From Boletus sp. NGJ (Eukaryota; Basidiomycota; Agaricomycetes; Boletales; Boletaceae), in NCBI GenBank assembly GCA_019096195.1, contig JAGTXK010000219.1, positions 930,001-994,000 of the forward strand: 64,000 nt of DNA. Reading direction: 5' to 3'. The notes under the pieces were generated by a model. That model was not told where the DNA came from, did not search any database, and was given only the letters and a program-made list of their open reading frames with translations. Of this stretch, positions 7,372 to 52,842 are shown one piece after another (the first letter of the stretch is position 1; each line of letters opens with the position of its first letter). The position numbers and the translations under genes were made by a program.

Positions 7372-8918
7372 TTATCCTGTGCTGAAATATGATAGTTCGA
7401 GTCCGATGGCTTTAATGGGTTTCGACCGGCTTGATAGGTCCGAAACAACTCCCAAGCTGACCAGCATCTGCTTCAGGCGCCCTTCCCATAACAACGAAAC
7501 AGTCTACGGAAGAGTTGAGTGGCACAGTACAATAACATAAGGAACCAGTGCAACGGACATTGTTGGTTGATATTCTGGTTTTCACAACCCCCCTAACGTC
7601 TGATACTGAGTGAGGCGACCCTTGTTGAAGGTGACTTGGATCATTATCTCGGGACTGAGGAGAATCGTTGTCTGAGATCGGTTGCGAGAGGGTACGCCGC
7701 ATCCACCATTCTGCCCCCATGGTCCACTCGCTATCATAGCTGTAGACATTGAAGTCAAACCTTGAACACAAAGAAAGGTCCTGGGAGACCTTGGCCACAT
7801 ATGCGGCTGAAACATGGCCCATCATTGGATTGAACAAGGCTGTAATTGTAGTAGGTGGCTGAGATGGCGGTCCGCGAGGCGGGGGAGACGACGAAGACGA
7901 CTGGGTGTGAGATGATGGAGTAGACGAGTCTGAGAGCGTCGTAAACCGAATTCCGGTAGACACTGCAAAAAAAGGAACTAAATATGCTTGGGTCAAAACA
8001 GAGTTATCACCATACCTCCCGCGCTTTTCTCCTTTGCACTGATATAAAATTCTGCTCCAGCAGAAACACGGCCCTTGAGTCCACCGCCAGTAGCTTCTTC
8101 CTCGTCCACGCGTTTTGGTCGAGGACCAATCGAGGAGCTGGAATCTTCGGAAGGCTCTACGGAGTTGCCGAGCCTACCAAAATTATGCAATACACGCACT
8201 CCCCACATTCCGTCTTCAGCGCTCCAAGTATACTCGGTACACCATTTTCCGATGTCGTGCTGCAGGCTAAACATGATATTGCTCACATTCTCCCCACGCG
8301 CTCCCCCCTCTTCGGTAAGGCTGGATCGTGGGTCGGAGATGGCAGCTATTAGCGCCTGTACTGTAGGTGATAACCGAGTCGTATACAGCGCATCTAATCG
8401 ACCGGAAGGGAGGTATAGACGACCATAGAGGAGATAATCTGTCGCAGGACCCTGTCGGTCAACGTTTCAAGATGACAGATGTAAAGAGCAGCAGGAGATT
8501 ACATACCCCGCGAGTCAACACGCTGACCAGCCAGCCATTCCTCCTTTCCCTCTGGCCGTCTAGGTTTGTTATACAATTTGAATCGCTCGACCATGTCCTT
8601 GAAACGGACGTCCCGAGAGTTCTTGATGTCTAGCTCGCACGAGGTAAAGATGTATCCCACCGAGCCGTTGAGCGACGGCATCGCATTCATGGAATACGAC
8701 GTGCTAAAGAGCGGGTTTGGCGACTTGGATATCGAAAGATGCAACCCGCGCGGGACATTGAAATCGAGTATTGCTATCCCGACACTTCAGGAGAGAGGGC
8801 AGGCCATGCAAGAGGACCTACCACTGGAAGACCGGGTCAAATTAGCATAAAGGTTATCTTCGTTCCAACCAGTCGCCTTGTAATAACTTCGCAAGACGTA
8901 AGACGCGAATGAATGCAT
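7372..8918 (-). CDS. MDM10: ERMES complex subunit Mdm10 (mitochondrial outer-membrane beta-barrel)
   Basis: Mdm10 is a porin-like barrel of the ER-mitochondria encounter structure and also helps the SAM complex. Exons: 8822-8918, about 8507-8773, 8016-8451, 7559-7962 and 7372-7503. The N-terminus [22 protein letters not shown] followed by [16 protein letters not shown] matches the family start, and [61 protein letters not shown] and [10 protein letters not shown] follow in order. It ends [16 protein letters not shown]. One caution: between exons 2 and 3 the best donor (GTATGT, 8501-8506) leaves the frame off by one base, so either a weaker donor such as CGT|GTTGAC is used or the sequence has a one-base error there. 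Introns 4 (55 bp) and 3 (53 bp) are clean. Confidence 0.9.
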
Positions 8919-8999: not shown

Positions 9000-11080
9000 C
9001 TATAGCATCTGCATGACCTCTGTCACAGTTGGCCGGGTCTCTGCGTCATTCCAGCACCTTTGCATGACTTCCCAAAGATGATCATCGAGTCCTCTCGCAA
9101 TGGTAGCGACATCACAAGGTCTGGGGGGCTTTTCGCTTGCAGCCACCTTGATGATGACTTGTGTGGTATGTCTGACGGTTGCCCAAGGCATCGCGTGCGT
9201 CATTAACTGCTCAGAGGTCAATAGGAGCTTGACTCGACACCAGGAAACCGATCTACCTCTAACATCGTCATTCCGAATGCATAAACGTCAGCGGCGGTGG
9301 TGAGCCTGCCCTTGTCAAAGCATAGCTCAGGTGCCAACCACCTCTGTGAGTTCGAGACTCTAAAACCAAAACCAAACATTGGCATGTTGAAATTTTTAAT
9401 CTCGCAAGACCATGCTCACCCAGCAGACTGGGTGAAGGGTACGCCAGTTATATCTTCTACAACCTGATACAGGTGTATTAGGACGGGATTCAGATTATCA
9501 TGATGCCTGCAGCGTACTCTCGAGAAACCAAAGTCTGCAAGAAGTGGGTTGCCAGCGGCATTAATGATGATATTAGCCTTTCAAAGCACATGTTAATTTT
9601 GAATATGCGCGAGAAGGCCGACACTCACCCCTTTCAAATCTCCGTGAACAACGAGTGGGTTCATGGTGTGGAGGACATGGATACCTGCACTGATACCTCG
9701 AATCTGTGGAATTACCCGCTAAACCAATTCGATAGTGATTTAACCGTCAAGACTGACCAATGCAAGGTGGTCGACGTCCGGGAAAAGGGCGACATATTTG
9801 TCAGCCGTTCCATTCGGGTGCCAAGGGCTGACGACGTAACTATCGCAGACGTCAGGTGAGTTTGCTCATACGACAGAAAAGACGCACGGGAAAGGCCCAT
9901 CATCCTGGCAAAACCCATAGAGGGGGAGAATGTGGCGTCCTTGATCGTTTTCCCATACTTTGTTCCAGATATCGACTTCGCGTCTAAATCGCTGGCAAAA
10001 TGTTTATGCAAGTACATGGACCAGCACTTATGAAGGCATACGTGTAGACTCTTGGGAGTAGAATGAACGGCACGCAAGATCTTGATGGCGACCTTTTCCT
10101 CATTTAGGTATAATCCCTCCCAGATATCCATGGAACCTGTCCCACTGACGGGGTATTGGCCAAGTCGACGTACCTCCCCTCGTTGTAATTGCATATTAGC
10201 AAGAAGTTTTCCGGTAGACTTTTGTATTCGATACAAGTTGGTACCGAGTCCCTGGGTATCATGACCTGGAATGGTTGAGAGATTCTGCAAACGGATCAAT
10301 GTCTTGGGGCGGAACTAAGAACCAACGGACACGGTTTACGTACCTGTTGCATCAGAGCCATTATGGCCTTTATGTCAGTGCCTTGTTGATGCTGGGTCAT
10401 CGCAATGATCGATTGGGTATTCTTGATATCAGAGAGATAGTGTATAATTTCGGCTTGGTCGCGTTCGTTGTTTGCCTTGAAGTCTGACTGCCAAGTCGCA
10501 GTGTCTAATGCTGCAGTGAGCTTAAGCGAGGGATCAGCCAAAGAGTATGAGGAATATGATATTTTGGACACACTTGGAGTTTCGTCAAACCGTCGTTGAT
10601 CTCCAAGTGACAGTCTTGGATCACAGTCGCCAGATCGACTTGCTTGATGAAAAGCTCGAATGAGCCTTTTGAGCACCATTTGTCTAGACGTTTGATAATG
10701 CTGCGGAGTGTGCTGGGAGCTTGCGATCAGAGTCGACGGATGTGCGGGGTGCATGAAGAAGAGACCTCTGAACACCAGCGATCAATCTCTGCTGTTCTGG
10801 CGGGGGGGCACCATCGCCGTTCTGTCGAACGACGACCAAGAAGCTGATACAGCGATCCTGAAGCTGCTTCAAGGCGTTCCTAGTGATCGGTAAGAGGTTG
10901 CGAGTAGAGCCGAGGGAGAATGAGATACTTGTTGGCGTGGGCCTGCCTGATCATGGTGATGAGGGTATTGAGAAAGCCGATGGCGGGAGCGAGCCAAGGG
11001 ACTGGGGCAAACTGGGCGGACACCTGGGCGGAGTCGAGGAAGAGAGCAGCGGCATATGGGAGTGTGGAGAGGACGGACAT
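9000..11080 (-). CDS. MLKL-like helical-bundle domain fused to TKL-type protein kinase
   Basis: The N-terminus (ATG at 11080) has a hydrophobic helix [24 protein letters not shown]; a 49-bp intron (10880-10928) then joins HANK to [21 protein letters not shown]. After another intron come [21 protein letters not shown] and [13 protein letters not shown]. This pattern is that of the four-helix MLKL N-terminal-type domain found in many Agaricomycete proteins. The kinase domain follows: [13 protein letters not shown] (Gly loop), VAIKI (Lys), [13 protein letters not shown] (catalytic loop with HGD in place of HRD), LADFGFSRV (DFG), RWLAPELCF (APE) and [11 protein letters not shown], ending [11 protein letters not shown]. 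All catalytic residues seem present, so it is probably active. Exact middle exons are not fixed. A role in regulated cell death or non-self response is inferred from architecture only. Confidence 0.8.
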
Positions 11081-14111: not shown

Positions 14112-14309
14112 CCTCTGACCGAGGAGGCTAACGAGGCTGCTTGTTGGGTACTACCCGGGGTTGGATGTCACGTCGCTTTACAATTAATATTGACTTGGCT
14201 ACCCTTTAAACTTGAGCCTGGGTCGTCGTGAATCTAATTCACTCTGCGATGTGACCATCTATTAAGATACCTAATAACGAGGTTCCCTAACCAACGTTGG
14301 TCCCGCGTC

Positions 14310-16470
14310 ATGGACACACAGCCATCATCGTCTTCGCCAGCCGAGGCGCCTGAACGTCCCCTTCCTGCTACACACTTCTATTCGGTCGAATATCCAGGTT
14401 ACGTGCAGCATTATTCTGTCCCCTTGGCAGTCCGCAACCTAGGTGGTACATCCAAGCTCGAGAGTGCGTTTAAGCGCACTGCCGCGAGGAGCGAAACTCT
14501 GTTGGAGCTAAATCTCCGCTACGGCAACCCTTATGTACATCCAATACCAGGAGATGTCGTCGGGACAAGCAATATCTTGATCAAGGTCACGAAAAGAAAG
14601 CGCCGGGAGGTTGACGATGATGGTGTCATTGGAGATTACATTGCAGAACCATTAGGTGCCATTTTTAAGACCGCTCGATTTCGCAGTAAGTCTGGCTATT
14701 GTAGTTGTTGTTATGACGGATATTCACAGTGAGGGTAGCCATGGCAGATTATCAGTTTCAGCCCGAGATGTTGGACCCCGTCGCGCGGTTGCGGCTAGCG
14801 ATGGACAGGATGGACGGTAAGCTGAGATAGGATCACCACAGAAATTGCGTTGATGAGTCAAACTATTGGTTGGTAGTCGATGCAATTCGGCAGTACACCA
14901 TCCCCGAAGAACAGGAAGACTATGTTCTCTCTTCTCCGACAGGGAGCGATCCCAACATCGATCCCGGCCTTGCGAAGCATGGCGGACTATCAGTTGCACG
15001 GAGTAATTTAAGGCTCTTTCCACCGCCGATATTCAGTCGTCAAGGAATTCCTCAGAACTACAAGTAAGTCGCTCGAATCTTTCCCCACAGCATGGGCTTG
15101 ACGGTAGGTAGCTTCAAGCCAAACCCTGCCTCAATGGTCGCTACTGTCGTCAACGAAGAAACTGGTGAGGAACGTAAGCGGCTCATCAACAAGGGTCGTT
15201 GGAAGGGATATGGCCCCGCAACGGTCACCTTTGGGGAACTCATTGTTGGTAGCGTTCTTGGATTGTTTGGTTTCCATCTTACACTCCTTAGATCCCGGAA
15301 AATCCAATCCCCGCCGTGAAACAGGCCCGAAATCAAGTAAAACCGGAACTCCTGGAACGCGTGACGCAGGTCGTATAAACCCGTCGCATTCTTCTGACAT
15401 CATAGCTAATACGTCTATTAGTTGGTACGAGATCGTCCGATCTGGACACGCGCTGCCCTGTACAATCAATTCAGTCCCGCGGAGGTTAGAGAGATACACA
15501 AGTGAGGTGTCTTTCTTTACTTCATCTGTCGTCTTACGTTTTACAGTTCCAAAGTTTTACTTCCTCTTGTTTGCTATACATTCCAGGATGGACCTTGGCG
15601 GGATACTCTTATCCGTCTCAAATATGACCCGAGAAAGAAACCAGAGGCCCGGTTGTAAGCACTCATCGAGGAGTTGCATCGTTGAACTACCTCACAAATC
15701 CCACAGCTATCAGCGTATCTATTTCCGTAATGCGAATCATCCAATGTCAAGGGTCTCCATCGTCTCCCGGCGACAGGAAGGGAGGTCAGCGGCCACATAC
15801 ATCACCAGGTCCGTCGAACAAGAGGAGACGGTGGATGTTGAGCGGCGGTGACTAACATTTTCCTCGCGCCTGGGCAATATAATGGTATAACGTTGTCTTT
15901 TTTTTTTTTCCCAGCAAGTCACACATATTCGATGGTGTTACACTCACCAAGGAAACGGCAGCTTTCCAGCTCTGTGACATATATGACCCCATGTTGAAAG
16001 CTATGATTGAAAGTGAGGAAGACTTGCGTGAAACATGCGATGTAGGTATTCCAATATCTGCTGCCACGTTCCCACCTCATCTACTTCAGGAACGAGATGG
16101 GTGGTATAGCGCACATGCGTTCGAGAGGGTCAAAATCGTCCTCCGTCACAAGTTCTTTTCACTACTCCAGGGTTACGTCGCCACTCAGGAGGAGTGTGAG
16201 GTTTTACTTGAGGAAGGCGGGACGGGGAAGAAAACCCAAACCACGCGAGTCAAGAAGCTCAAATATGGCAAACACAACATGGCCAAGGGAGCGCTTCGAC
16301 CAGAAGATGCAGCAGTGTGTTTCACAGAATCGTTCTCCGTACCGGACATTCATCTCCATCTTTAGGCTGCGAGATTGCAAGCCGCTCTTGAACGTCATGC
16401 AAAGAACCTACAGGCGAATCGGAGGGAGAAACTAGGGGATCATTCGCTTACACCGGAATCCCGTTCATAA
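14310..16470 (+). CDS. TFC1: TFIIIC subunit (Tfc1/Sfc1/GTF3C5 family)
   Basis: This subunit of RNA polymerase III factor TFIIIC binds the A-box of tRNA genes. The start MDTQPSSSSPAEAPERPLPATHFYSVEYPGYVQHY carries the family's YPGYV motif, then LGGTSKLESAF, LLELNLRYGNPYVHPIPGD. Later exons give FPPPIFSRQGIPQNY, SFKPNPASMVATVVNE, KGYGPATVTFGE, GPWRDTLIRLKYDPRKKPEARF, YQRIYFRNA and an acidic/His segment. The last exon ends LQAALERHAKNLQANRREKLGD with stop at 16468-16470. At least seven introns; one near 15890-15912 has a long T run before its acceptor. Inner exon limits are approximate but identity is secure. Confidence 0.85.
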
Positions 16471-17210: not shown

Positions 17211-19914
17211 ATGCCAGCCTCCGTCACTGGACCTCGCACTCTGTACGATAAAATCTGGGACGACCATGTCGTGTGAGTCTTAGCCGCCCATTTTGATTGA
17301 CATTGAACTCGTTGGCCGTCAGCGATGCCATGGAGGATGGATTAGCCCTTATCTACATCGATCGGTGTGTGCATTGGCCTCACAAATAAACCTGCTGACG
17401 AGCTTGGCTCTTAGCCATCTTGTTCACGAAGTCACGAGCCCTCAGGCGTTCGAGGGATTGTACGTCCCCCATTTACTCATGTCACCTCCCTTGCTCATCG
17501 CGCGGATAGGCGGACAGCTGGGCGGAATGTTCGCCGGCCAGATTGCACCCTAGCAACTGTTGATCATAACATTCCGTGAGTGCCTTTGCACTGGCGTGCA
17601 GAAACCAGACCAGAATCCTCATTCGATCCAAGGACGATCTCCCGCAAAAACTACAAATCCGTCAATACGTTTGTAGCAGAACCCGATTCCCGCGCACAGT
17701 GTTTGGCCATCGAAGAACACGTGAAAGAATTTGGACTCACTTACTTCGGTCTGGCGGACCGACGTCAGGGTATGCAGATCTGTCCTTCTGCCAACCCCGT
17801 TGCTGAACCAATCACAGGGATTGTGCACGTCATCGGTCCCGAACAAGGTTTCACGGTGAATCGCCATCCCGTATTTTTGACACCCAGTACACAGTACTGA
17901 CTACTTACAGCTTCCGGGTATAACATGCGTCTGTGGTGATTCTCACACCTCCAGTATGTCCGTGATATTAGATCTTCGTAGTCATTCATCTTTCCTTTAC
18001 ACAGCCCATGGCGCGTTTGGCTCCTTGGCGTTCGGCATTGGAACATCCGAAGTCGAGCATGTCCTTGCTACTCAAACCTTGATGCAACGAAAGGGGAAGA
18101 ACATGCGTATCACTGTAGACGGTGAGCTCGCTGAAGGCGTGAACTCGAAGGACGTCATTCTGCATATCATCGGACTCATCGGGACAGCTGGAGGCACAGG
18201 CCATGTAATCGAATATGCCGGTTCTGTCTTCCGCGGCTTTAGCATGGAGGCTCGTATGAGCGTCTGCAACATGAGTATCGAAGCCGGTGCCCGAGCCGGT
18301 ATGGTTGCACCAGATGATGTTACCTTCGAGTACCTCCGCAATCGTCCCCTGGCTCCCAAGGGCGAAGCATGGAAACGTGCTGAAGCCTACTGGCGTACCC
18401 TCAAGACCGATGATGATGCAAAATTTGATGTCGAAGTAAAGATCAATGCAGCTGATATACCACCCACTGTAACGTGGGGCACATCCCCCCAAGATGTTGT
18501 CCCTATCACTGGTTCTGTTCCAGATCCTGCAACAATGACAGACCCCGCCAAGCGGGCTGCTGCGGAGCAGGCCTTGGCTTATATGGGTCTGCAACCAAAT
18601 ACTCGCATGGAAGACATCGCGTTGGACAAAGTCTTCATCGGTTCTTGCACCAACAGTCGTATCGAAGATCTTCGTTCTGCTGCTCGAGTTGTCTTGGCTG
18701 CCGGCCCCAACTCCAAGGTATCGCCGAACGTCCAAACTATGGTTGTTCCTGGCTCAGGGTTGGTTAGACAGCATGCAGAGGCAGAGGGACTAGATACCAT
18801 CTTCATGCGGGCTGGTTTTGACTGGCGAGAGGCTGGATGCTCTATGTGCTTAGGCATGAACCCGGATCAGTTAGCTCCCGGCGAGCGCTGCGCCAGTACA
18901 AGTAATCGAAACTTTGAAGGCCGTCAAGGGGCTGGAGGGCGGACTCACCTCGTCAGTCCTGCCATGGCAGCAGCAGCAGCTATTTCGGGCAAGCTTACTG
19001 ACGTTCGAAAATTGCTGGGATCAAGGGCCGAGAGTAATATTACCGAAGTGCCGACGCTGAAGCAATCGAGTCCATACGAGTTCTTGACAGACCCTGTATT
19101 CCCTCCTCCCGAGCCGGAACCTCTCACACACGCATCTGGCGCATCTCCCGTAGAGCTCCCCCCGTCTTCAGGCTCTGGGGTTCTGAAATTTGTCGTTGTT
19201 AAAGGGGTCGCAGCACCTCTGCACATGGCCAACGTCGACACTGATAAGATTATTCCCAAACAATTCCTCAAAACGCTGAAACGTACCGGTCTATCTAATG
19301 CGTTGTTCTACGCTATTCGCTTTGATCCCAAGACAGGGGAGAAGACGGACTTTGTCCTAAACCGTGCTCCATATGACCAGGCGAGCATCCTCGTCGTCAC
19401 TGAGCCGAACTTTGGCTGTGGTAGCTCTCGGGAGCACGCTGCATGGAGTCTGTGAGTCTTCCTGTCCGAGTCTGATCATCTGGCTCTCGGACTGACGATC
19501 ATGAATTGCAGGAACGACTTCGGAATTCGTTGCGTTATCGCTCCAAGCTTTGGCGAGATTTTCCGAAACAACGCCATGCAAAACGGTATGCTCCCCTTGC
19601 CGCTTTCTCAAGCGGAGTGCAAAGACCTTGCGGTGGACGCGGAGGCAGGTGTGGAGCTTGAGGTCGACCTCGAGAAACAGGAAGTGAGACGGGAGAATGG
19701 AAAGCCAGTGATCCGCTTCACGGTGGATCCCTTCCGACGCCACTGTTTGTTAAATGGCCTGGATGACATCGCGCTGACGCTGCGGAAAGAAGATGCCATC
19801 GCCACGTTTGAGCAGCGCAGGAGCGCAGTTTGGCCATGGCTGGATGGATTTGGATTTAAGGGGAACAAGATCCCAGTTGTCCCGATGAAGACGAACAAGA
19901 AGACGGAGTGGTGA
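17211..19914 (+). CDS. LEU1: 3-isopropylmalate dehydratase (fused LeuC-LeuD)
   Basis: Catalyses isomerisation of 2- to 3-isopropylmalate in leucine synthesis with a 4Fe-4S cluster. Starts [27 protein letters not shown]; early exons give [73 protein letters not shown]. The long exon 17956-19455 holds the LeuC core with cluster cysteines in FIGSCTNSR and [13 protein letters not shown], then [13 protein letters not shown], and passes into the LeuD domain ([25 protein letters not shown]). The last exon (from about 19513) has [18 protein letters not shown] and ends KTNKKTEW. The HNIP-TISRK join needs an AAG acceptor. At least seven introns, crowded in the 5' part. Complete as in other fungi. Confidence 0.95.
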
Positions 19915-50413: not shown

Positions 50414-52842
50414 ATGCACACACCGCCATCAACATTGTCCCCCTCACACTCATCTTGGAGGTCTGTCTTTCGTTTGCCAAAGAAGCAATTGGCAAATGTC
50501 AACGGCACTCCTCCTCTCAGGAACGTCTCTACCGTTAAGCATCCATCCGCACCCCCACCCAGCCTGTCCCCCACGCCTTCAACCCCGCACTCCGTCGACC
50601 AACGTTCGTCCTACAACTCCTCCAAGACCCAGTCGAGCGAGCTCAACCCGGCCGGAACCCCAAAGTCCTCGTACCTCGTGCCTGACTCCCAGGAGTCCCA
50701 TGCTCGGCTTCACATGAAGACTGCTCCGGTACGCGCGAGGACAAAGTCGGAGAAGCAACGTATCGACCTCCCCGCAGGCAGGTCCCAGACTGCTGATCCG
50801 TCCCAACAGTCTTTTCCCCTCCCGTCGGGACATGGCCCTTCAGCAAGTCGCTCAGGACCCTTGTCGCCTCGAGCAATGGGTGCTTCGGCCACTCGTTTCA
50901 TTCGTCGTGTCGCCTCCGCTCCAAATGCCAAGCATCTCTTTTTGTCTGGCTCGCGGTCAGCTGCGCCGACCAAGAATGGTTTACTCGCTCCAGCAGAGAT
51001 AATACCCCCCGTCCCTGGCGGCCCATCCAGCATCTCGGAGTATGGCGATGATTCCTTGGAGACCATTTCTTCAGGCTCATCAAGAAGCCGGTCGACAAGA
51101 CATGAACGATACCCAGGCTATGGAACTCCAAAGACCCGGATCGCGAATCCAACTGCCGAAGGTCCCGGCAAAGTTGCTTTCCGACGGACTTACTCAAGTA
51201 ACTCTATCAAAGTTCGATCCGTACGTCCCCTCCCTCCCTCTTTCTTTCAACGACGATGTATTCTTCGTGCAGGTGGAGGTTGGCCCTTCGAGCTTCCTCA
51301 AAATCAAAATGCTAGGTAAAGGCGACGTTGGGCGTGTCTACCTGGTCAAAGAGAAGAAAACGGACAAGTTGTTTGCCATGAAAGGCATGTCCAATTCGAT
51401 TTCACTTTTTACCAGTATTTTACCTACGATCTCAGTGCTCTCAAAGAAGGAGATGATAGAGCGGAAGAAGATCAAGCGAGCGTTGACGGAGCAAGAAATT
51501 CTTGCTACTTCTAATCACCCTTTTATAGTGACGCTTTACCATTCCTTCCAATCAGAGCAGTATCTCTACTTCTGCATGGAATACTGCATGGGCGGGGAGT
51601 TCTTCCGCGCGTTGCAAACACGTCCGGGCAAATGTCTTCCGGAGGACAGCTCACGGTTCTACGCCGCTGAAGTCGTCGCCGCACTAGAGTATCTACATCT
51701 CAATGGATTTATTTATCGCGACCTTAAACCAGAAAGTGCGTCAAAATTTTGGTTCTGTCGCCACACTCACGAGTGTGTTACTGTGCATTTGACAGACATC
51801 CTACTCCATCAATCCGGACACATCATGTTGTCAGATTTCGACCTGGCCAAGCAATCGGGGCATCCAGGGGGTCGACCTGCCACCATTCACCAGTCAGAGC
51901 CAAACGGAGTATGTGTCTCGCGTCGACCATGTGATAACCTTTGTAACACGCACCGTTCTAGGTCCCTATGATCGATACGATGTCCTGCACGGCTGATTTC
52001 AGGACGAATTCATTCGTCGGAACCGAGGGTCAGGATGGTGTTACCTGCTTTGTAAAAGGTGTCTGACGCTTGTACTTTGATTTGCAGAGTACATTGCACC
52101 TGAGGTGATTGCGGCACAAGGGCACACCGCAGCCGTGGATTGGTGGACTCTCGGCATACTCATTTACGAGATGATCGTGAGTGATTATTATTCGTATTTG
52201 GAGTGTGGGGAATTGCCAACGATTGCGTTTGCTGGTGGTGACATAGTTCGCTACGACACCGTTCAAGGGCAAGGAGAGGAACGATACGTTTGCGAATATA
52301 CGGTTGTTGCCTGTTCATTTCCGCGATACACCCAAGATATCCAGGTACGTCCATGAATCGTATGGGCGTGTTGCTGTGATGATGGAAAACTGGGGACAGT
52401 GCTTGTAAGGATGTCGTCGTGCGGCTCTTGGACAAAGAAGAGCGGGCCCGGATAGGAAGCAGGAGCGGCGCAAGCGAGGTGAAGCAGCACAAGTGGTTTT
52501 CCAAAATTAATTGGGGTCTTTTGCGCCACACACGACCACCGGTATGTCAAAAACCAGTCGATTTTCGTTTCTATGAGTGTGTCACGTGGCACCCATTTAC
52601 CGTTTCATGTGTGCGTGCTGATCGACCTGCTTGATGTGTAGATTGTTCCAACTGGGTCAAACGGAACTGATGCTGCCAATTTCCGACAGCTGAAGGAGTC
52701 GCGGTCACTGCACCTGGAGGAGCAAGGATGTATCGCTACGCCTGGTACGCCTGGCTACGATGACGGGCTGGAGTCGCCACCGGACGGGGATTTGTTTGGG
52801 GCGTTCAACAGCGTCACGATACACTACGATGGTGAATTGTGA
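50414..52842 (+). CDS. AGC protein kinase, nrc-2/Fpk1 (flippase kinase) family
   Basis: N-terminal 270 residues are disordered and Ser/Pro-rich, starting [15 protein letters not shown]. The kinase begins [37 protein letters not shown] (Gly loop, Lys) and continues [75 protein letters not shown] (catalytic loop, intron inside) and [21 protein letters not shown], with DFD in place of DFG, as in this family. Later exons have [29 protein letters not shown] and [15 protein letters not shown], and a tail ending [12 protein letters not shown]. Fpk/nrc-2 kinases activate lipid flippases and affect polarity and sterol or sphingolipid signalling. Introns are short and numerous. Complete at both ends. 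Confidence 0.9.

Follow-up and report, generated by a model that had tools for sequence, protein, structure and literature searches.

A putative MLKL_N-like domain joined to a complete-looking kinase in one Boletus gene, and a paralog with an altered catalytic loop

Introduction

Can a helical domain of the MLKL type be carried by a kinase that looks catalytically intact, and what would such a protein do in a fungus? This question was raised by a gene of Boletus sp. NGJ, which had been predicted from its sequence to encode an MLKL-like bundle followed by an active-looking kinase. In animals, the pseudokinase domain of MLKL is phosphorylated by RIPK3, which frees the N-terminal bundle, and the plasma membrane is then attacked. 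The gene is situated in a stretch of 64,000 nucleotides (assembly GCA_019096195.1, contig JAGTXK010000219.1, positions 930,001 to 994,000), which is called the window in the following.

Related helical domains are described to act in cell death of fungi, plants, and animals (PMC12881547, PMC9950082). According to a figure legend in a 2025 review, fungal HELL domains occur on kinase or pseudokinase proteins (PMC12881547). In addition, MLKL-family homologs have been reported for Glomeromycotina (PMC8778642), and a comparison with rotifers mentions a fungal MLKL (PMC11476962). A search of the open-access literature listed no paper in which a fungal MLKL_N-kinase protein had been studied by experiment.

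Results

The Gene Model

The coordinates that had been given in the original prediction were found to be the coding extent of a gene on the minus strand; the strand had been left out. The features are compiled in Table 1. The 12 exons are joined to a single open frame, and every intron has GT-AG borders and a length of 39–86 nt. For intron 3 there are two candidate phase-0 acceptors. The acceptor at 10488 leads to an intron of 86 nt and a protein of 493 aa, while the acceptor at 10521 leads to an intron of 53 nt, which has a CTGAT branch-like site and is close to the usual intron size of this gene, and a protein of 504 aa. The latter is the preferred candidate. Residues are numbered here according to the 493-aa version.

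The model is based on reading frames, splice sites, and homology, and it was not recovered by a crude ab-initio gene finder. A first version of the finder did not call any gene, and a second version merged the gene with its downstream neighbor and mis-spliced the kinase. Three intron penalties were used with the second version; the best model lacked exon 1 at one of them and kept it at the other two.

Table 1. Features of the kinase gene and its surroundings, given as positions in the window.
Feature	Position	Strand	Remarks
Whole coding region	9000..11080	minus	12 exons, from reading frames and splice sites; ATG at 11080, stop codon ends at 9000
Exons 1-4	11080-10929, 10879-10766, 10712-10574, 10520 (or 10487)-10344	minus	
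Exons 5-8	10284-10042, 9991-9888, 9839-9758, 9718-9629	minus	
Exons 9-12	9577-9518, 9463-9420, 9359-9257, 9206-9000	minus	
N-terminal extension, hydrophobic stretch, about residues 1-29	10994..11080	minus	boundary approximate, from the start of the paralog's Pfam match
Residues 15-135, gapless match to residues 10-130 of L005	10574..11038	minus	spread over exons 1-3; interrupted by introns 1 and 2
Linker, putative helical domain to kinase	10144..10520	minus	"brace-like" by position only; no clear similarity to L005
Gly loop	10114..10143	minus	read from sequence; third Gly replaced by Asp
VAIK, ATP-binding Lys	10081..10092	minus	residue 248
Catalytic loop HGDLKG	9629..9646	minus	followed by AN at 9577-9572, beyond intron 8
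DFG	9527..9535	minus	residue 371
APE	9326..9334	minus	residue 400
MDM10, mitochondrial distribution and morphology protein	7993-8918	minus	Pfam; 3' part outside the scan
Tau95-type domain	14238-14729	plus	Pfam
Aconitase	17881-19452	plus	Pfam
Second, ordinary-looking protein kinase	51003-51968	plus	Pkinase 1.3e-33

The Kinase Domain

When the 493-aa protein was compared with Pfam, the best families were PK_Tyr_Ser-Thr (7.6e-30) and Pkinase (5.5e-26), and at E<=1 only kinase-type families were matched, with neither NACHT nor NB-ARC among them. The PDB matches of the kinase included Eph receptors, RIPK4, and B-Raf. The motifs VAIK, HGDLKGAN, DFG, and APE are present as had been predicted, and the predicted Gly loop is preserved in part, as GTGSMD retains GxG and has an Asp at the third Gly position. 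The alpha-C Glu was found within RREVDIW, and HGDLKGAN at residue 351 aligns to vHrDlaarN of an Eph receptor. By motif reading, this looks like a complete TK/TKL-type kinase that would be active. Residues confined to tyrosine kinases, as listed in the motifs of PMC3937382, are absent: the loop reads DLKGAN, and there is no Pro ahead of RWLAPE.

The paper cited describes FslK kinases, which have expanded in mushroom-forming fungi (Agaricomycetes) and are near to tyrosine kinases (PMC3937382). The window kinase resembles them in being TK-related without the TK-only residues, a likeness that stems from motif reading. In contrast to most of them, it carries a putative N-terminal domain, as additional domains are given for only 16 of the 241 FslK members (PMC3937382).

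The N-Terminal Region and a Paralog With the Same Layout

Direct searches with the N-terminal region of the window protein did not return an MLKL-type domain. Pfam yielded nothing for the first 183 aa at E<=1 and nothing relevant for the first 135 aa or a 194-aa version at E<=10. A phmmer search of the PDB returned no MLKL or HeLo chain (best E 0.53). The whole genome was also searched with the profiles PF22215 (MLKL_N) and PF17111, with zero matches. This says little, because the search was performed exon by exon and the domain is split across three exons; indeed PF22215 missed even the paralog described below.

The paralog was found through its kinase, when the full window protein was searched against its own genome. 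The best match beyond its own exons (C22:1871999-1872358, 36% identity over residues 365-483, E 9.1e-15) led to a gene, L005, with 14 exons and 526 aa, in which the parts have the same order as in the window gene. The junction of its intron 5 is doubtful, and the donor was chosen to maintain the frame. The common layout also supports the window gene model, because an accidental fusion of two neighboring predictions is unlikely to occur twice.

The N-terminus of L005 did match Pfam MLKL_N (PF22215). Residues 33-133 were aligned to positions 9-112 of the 142 positions of the profile. The N-terminal piece alone scored 26.5 bits (E 5.1e-6) and just missed the curated cut-off of 27 bits, and the whole protein scored 23.3 bits (E 4.8e-5). 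None of eight shuffled L005 N-termini matched MLKL_N, a weak control as shuffling also destroyed the helical pattern, and two of the eight gave weak unrelated Pfam matches (0.018 and 0.081). In the PDB the L005 N-terminus had an engineered protein as its sole match (E 0.013) and no MLKL or HeLo chain, and a two-sequence profile of both N-termini again found no such chain (best E 0.41).

The N-termini of the window protein and L005 are clearly similar to one another. They could be aligned without gaps over 121 residues with 22% identity (E 7e-13 for this single comparison). The Smith-Waterman score was 115, compared with 26.9 on average for shuffled sequences (sd 4.5, z 19.7), and without the first segment it was 89, compared with an average of 23.4; in both cases none of 2000 shuffles reached the score. 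For the linkers z was only 2.0, and 90 of 2000 shuffles reached the score. When the genome was searched with the L005 N-terminus, exon 3 of the window gene was the only match besides L005 itself (E 0.112). By way of the alignment, window residues 38-135 correspond to L005 residues 33-130, that is, to the MLKL_N match of L005.

Intron positions were also compared. Introns 2, 5, and 8 of the window gene are at the same codon and in the same phase as introns 2, 7, and 12 of L005, and in the gapless alignment the sites of window intron 3 and L005 intron 4 coincide, at Q135/H130. For intron 1 there is an offset of one base, and for the remaining six window introns no L005 intron was found at the same place.

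The original prediction had also assigned a hydrophobic helix of the MLKL type to the very N-terminus. A hydrophobic stretch is indeed present at about residues 1-29. The most hydrophobic span of 19 residues near the N-terminus (26-44) has a mean of 1.39 on the Kyte-Doolittle scale. This is below the usual transmembrane level of about 1.6, and a strong transmembrane-like first segment was not seen. Moreover, the stretch precedes the part that corresponds to the MLKL_N match of L005, so it is not simply helix 1 of MLKL. Basidiomycete MLKL-like domains are described to carry an N-terminal extension (PMC9815663), and the extension of about 29 residues agrees with this description.

Taken together, these comparisons give good support to an MLKL_N-like domain that is situated at the N-terminus of the window protein and fused to the kinase in a single gene. 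The MLKL-type domain of the original prediction is thus upheld by way of the paralog, and not by any direct Pfam or PDB match of the window sequence. Its central statement, that such a domain and a catalytically complete-looking kinase reside in one gene, was borne out by the 12-exon frame, the homology with L005, and the motifs.

The Catalytic Loop of the Paralog and Other Related Kinases

L005 retains VALK and DFG, while its catalytic loop reads VHGNLKCTN, compared with VHGDLKGAN in the window protein. For comparison, 16 loci were fetched, which are a choice from 56 exon matches to the window protein and not a census. HGD was found in 7 of the 19 other kinase places of these loci in an alignment projected on the window sequence, and by eye in five further places (two in L006, two in L007, and one in L020); the reading covered these 12 of the 19. 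In this related set the Asn of HGN appears to be unusual, and L005 is probably a pseudokinase. Mushroom kinases often have an HGN form. L005 keeps the putative helical domain and has lost the catalytic Asp, which hints at an importance of the domain in its own right.

The upstream frames were inspected by eye for 18 of the 20 kinase places, with one of the three L019 copies among them. When the 16 loci were searched with both N-termini (tblastn), nothing better than E 0.32 was found beyond L005, and the two-sequence profile gave nothing better than E 0.63 for the 15 other kinase loci with their 19 kinase places. As to further paralogs with the same fusion, which had been considered in the original prediction, L005 is one, and the other fetched loci did not yield any at these levels.

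A kinase tree was built from 21 rows, projected on the window sequence. It placed the window kinase and L005 together with a support of only 0.27 and did not resolve them as sisters. Kinase identities to the window protein over common columns were 42% for L008 and L012, 41% for L015, and 35% for L005, values that are biased because they are derived from local matches. Whether the fusion arose once is neither shown nor excluded by the kinase tree. The similarity of the N-termini and the intron sites speak for a single origin, with the reservation that the intron sites in the kinase part might be general to the wider kinase set.

Two further observations were made on the kinase matches. In L019 (G000:C107:187500-197000) two near-identical kinase copies are present in inverted orientation within about 4 kb, and a third related copy is nearby. 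The contig pairs C59/C127, C35/C50, and C10/C94 of the same genome (G000) share their kinase matches at equal or almost equal scores, which may mean that parts of both haplotypes have been retained in the assembly.

Genomic Surroundings

On the minus strand the kinase gene is followed by MDM10 (PF12519), the ATG of which is at 8918, 81 bases past the stop of the kinase gene. Pfam matches at E <= 0.01 were obtained for 8 of 20 scanned window stretches, namely three MDM10 pieces, a Tau95 domain, an aconitase, a weak WD40, an RRM, and another kinase. These 20 stretches, which were taken from 70 long open frames in a genome region where introns break most genes, yielded no NLR or HeLo gene. Elsewhere in the genome NLR-type P-loops gave 18 exon matches, 17 of them above the cut-off, and the 17 NLR-type loci had no match to the N-terminal profile better than E 2.5. 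At G000:C101:546759-616044, three NPHP3_N-type P-loop matches lie within 70 kb, a possible NLR cluster.

Discussion

What might a protein of this kind do? We favor the view, with a probability of about 50%, that the window protein belongs to a fungal MLKL_N-plus-kinase kind and acts as an effector of defense or non-self cell death, which is freed by kinase-controlled phosphorylation. In the resting state the kinase and the linker would keep the bundle quiet. Clustering induced by a partner would then allow the kinase to phosphorylate the activation segment, either its own or that of the dead-looking L005, so that release by the intact kinase could occur in cis, in trans, or by action on L005. 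The freed bundle would oligomerize at the membrane and permeabilize it, resulting in defense or non-self cell death. That the window protein kills cells is what we infer. A simple transfer of the MLKL mechanism is made less likely by the extension of about 29 residues, which precedes the part of the protein that corresponds to MLKL_N.

The chief rival explanation is that the kinase is the output and that the helical domain only dimerizes, tethers, or aims it, as an integrated recognition or assembly domain that does not kill by membrane action. The retained catalytic motifs are in line with this, as selection seems to maintain the enzyme, and so is the only moderate hydrophobicity of the first segment. 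For wheat Pm13, too, both killing and the perception of effectors are left open by the authors as functions of the MLKL_NTD (PMC10951266). On the other hand, L005 retains the putative helical domain without the catalytic Asp, which suits a role beyond serving catalysis, and the cell death functions of the related domains (PMC12881547, PMC9950082) also speak against a mere accessory. We regard this explanation as the less likely one, though a serious competitor.

A second explanation is markedly less probable, that is, an ordinary member of the related TK/TKL-type kinases of this genome with an unrelated helical N-terminus, so that the MLKL_N match of L005 would be a chance resemblance between helical sequences. 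It could draw on the missing Pfam match of the window sequence itself, on the score of L005 just under the cut-off, and on the 15 other kinase loci without a profile match better than E 0.63. However, the match covers most of the profile and lies ahead of a kinase, which is the MLKL layout, and the shuffled N-termini, weak control as they are, all missed MLKL_N. That the fusion is a prediction artefact made of two genes, or a decayed gene, is very improbable, as the ambiguous acceptor of intron 3, a window model derived by sequence alone, and a gene finder that failed and dropped exon 1 at one of three penalties are countered by a frame that is open across 12 exons and by a collinear paralog with common intron positions.

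The favored view, an effector freed by its own kinase, can be compared with several known systems. Animal MLKL has the same order of MLKL_N, linker, and kinase-like domain, and in the window protein, too, a kinase-type domain lies C-terminal of the putative helical domain. In contrast to the window gene, which retains the catalytic motifs (VAIK, HGDLKGAN, DFG), MLKL of animals is a RIPK3-driven pseudokinase; the HGN loop is found in L005. Fungal HET-S and HELLP effectors combine a HeLo or HELL domain with an amyloid signaling motif. In the window protein the putative helical domain is followed by a kinase. The BaMLKL domains of NLRs share with it an MLKL_NTD-like domain with an additional N-terminal segment, but they sit on receptors and not on a kinase (PMC9815663).

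Pm13, the AelMLKL of Aegilops in wheat, has an N-terminal MLKL_NTD, a C-terminal kinase with all key residues, and 476 aa (PMC10951266), thus a similar size and, for the N-terminus by way of L005, a putatively similar type of domain. It differs in that it is a plant protein with a kinase of the LRR_8B subfamily and a resistance function established with mutants (PMC10951266). The fungal HELL-kinase or pseudokinase proteins of the review also unite an MLKL-like helical and a kinase-type domain in one protein, a comparison made here at the level of their description (PMC12881547). The architecture is not new, as it is described from fungi and plants (PMC12881547, PMC10951266), and an intact kinase on an MLKL-type domain, from which the original prediction had derived a possible reversal of the control logic of animal MLKL, has precedents in Pm13 and the fungal HELL proteins.

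The most useful new point is that two copies, one with an active-looking and one with a dead-looking kinase, are present in the same genome. It is tempting to draw a parallel to the RIPK3-MLKL relay, with the HGD protein acting on the HGN paralog, both carrying the killing domain and the enzyme itself being an executioner; we consider such a relay quite improbable. At present, the value of the gene is that of a well-described example, with its gene structure and a contrasting paralog, of an architecture that is mentioned in a review. If the mechanism were as proposed, it would be a one-protein control of necroptosis, in which the kinase is the executioner and a dead-kinase sister is present in the same cell. 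If this were true, it could be tested whether the split between RIPK3 and MLKL in animals may have descended from a bifunctional ancestor.
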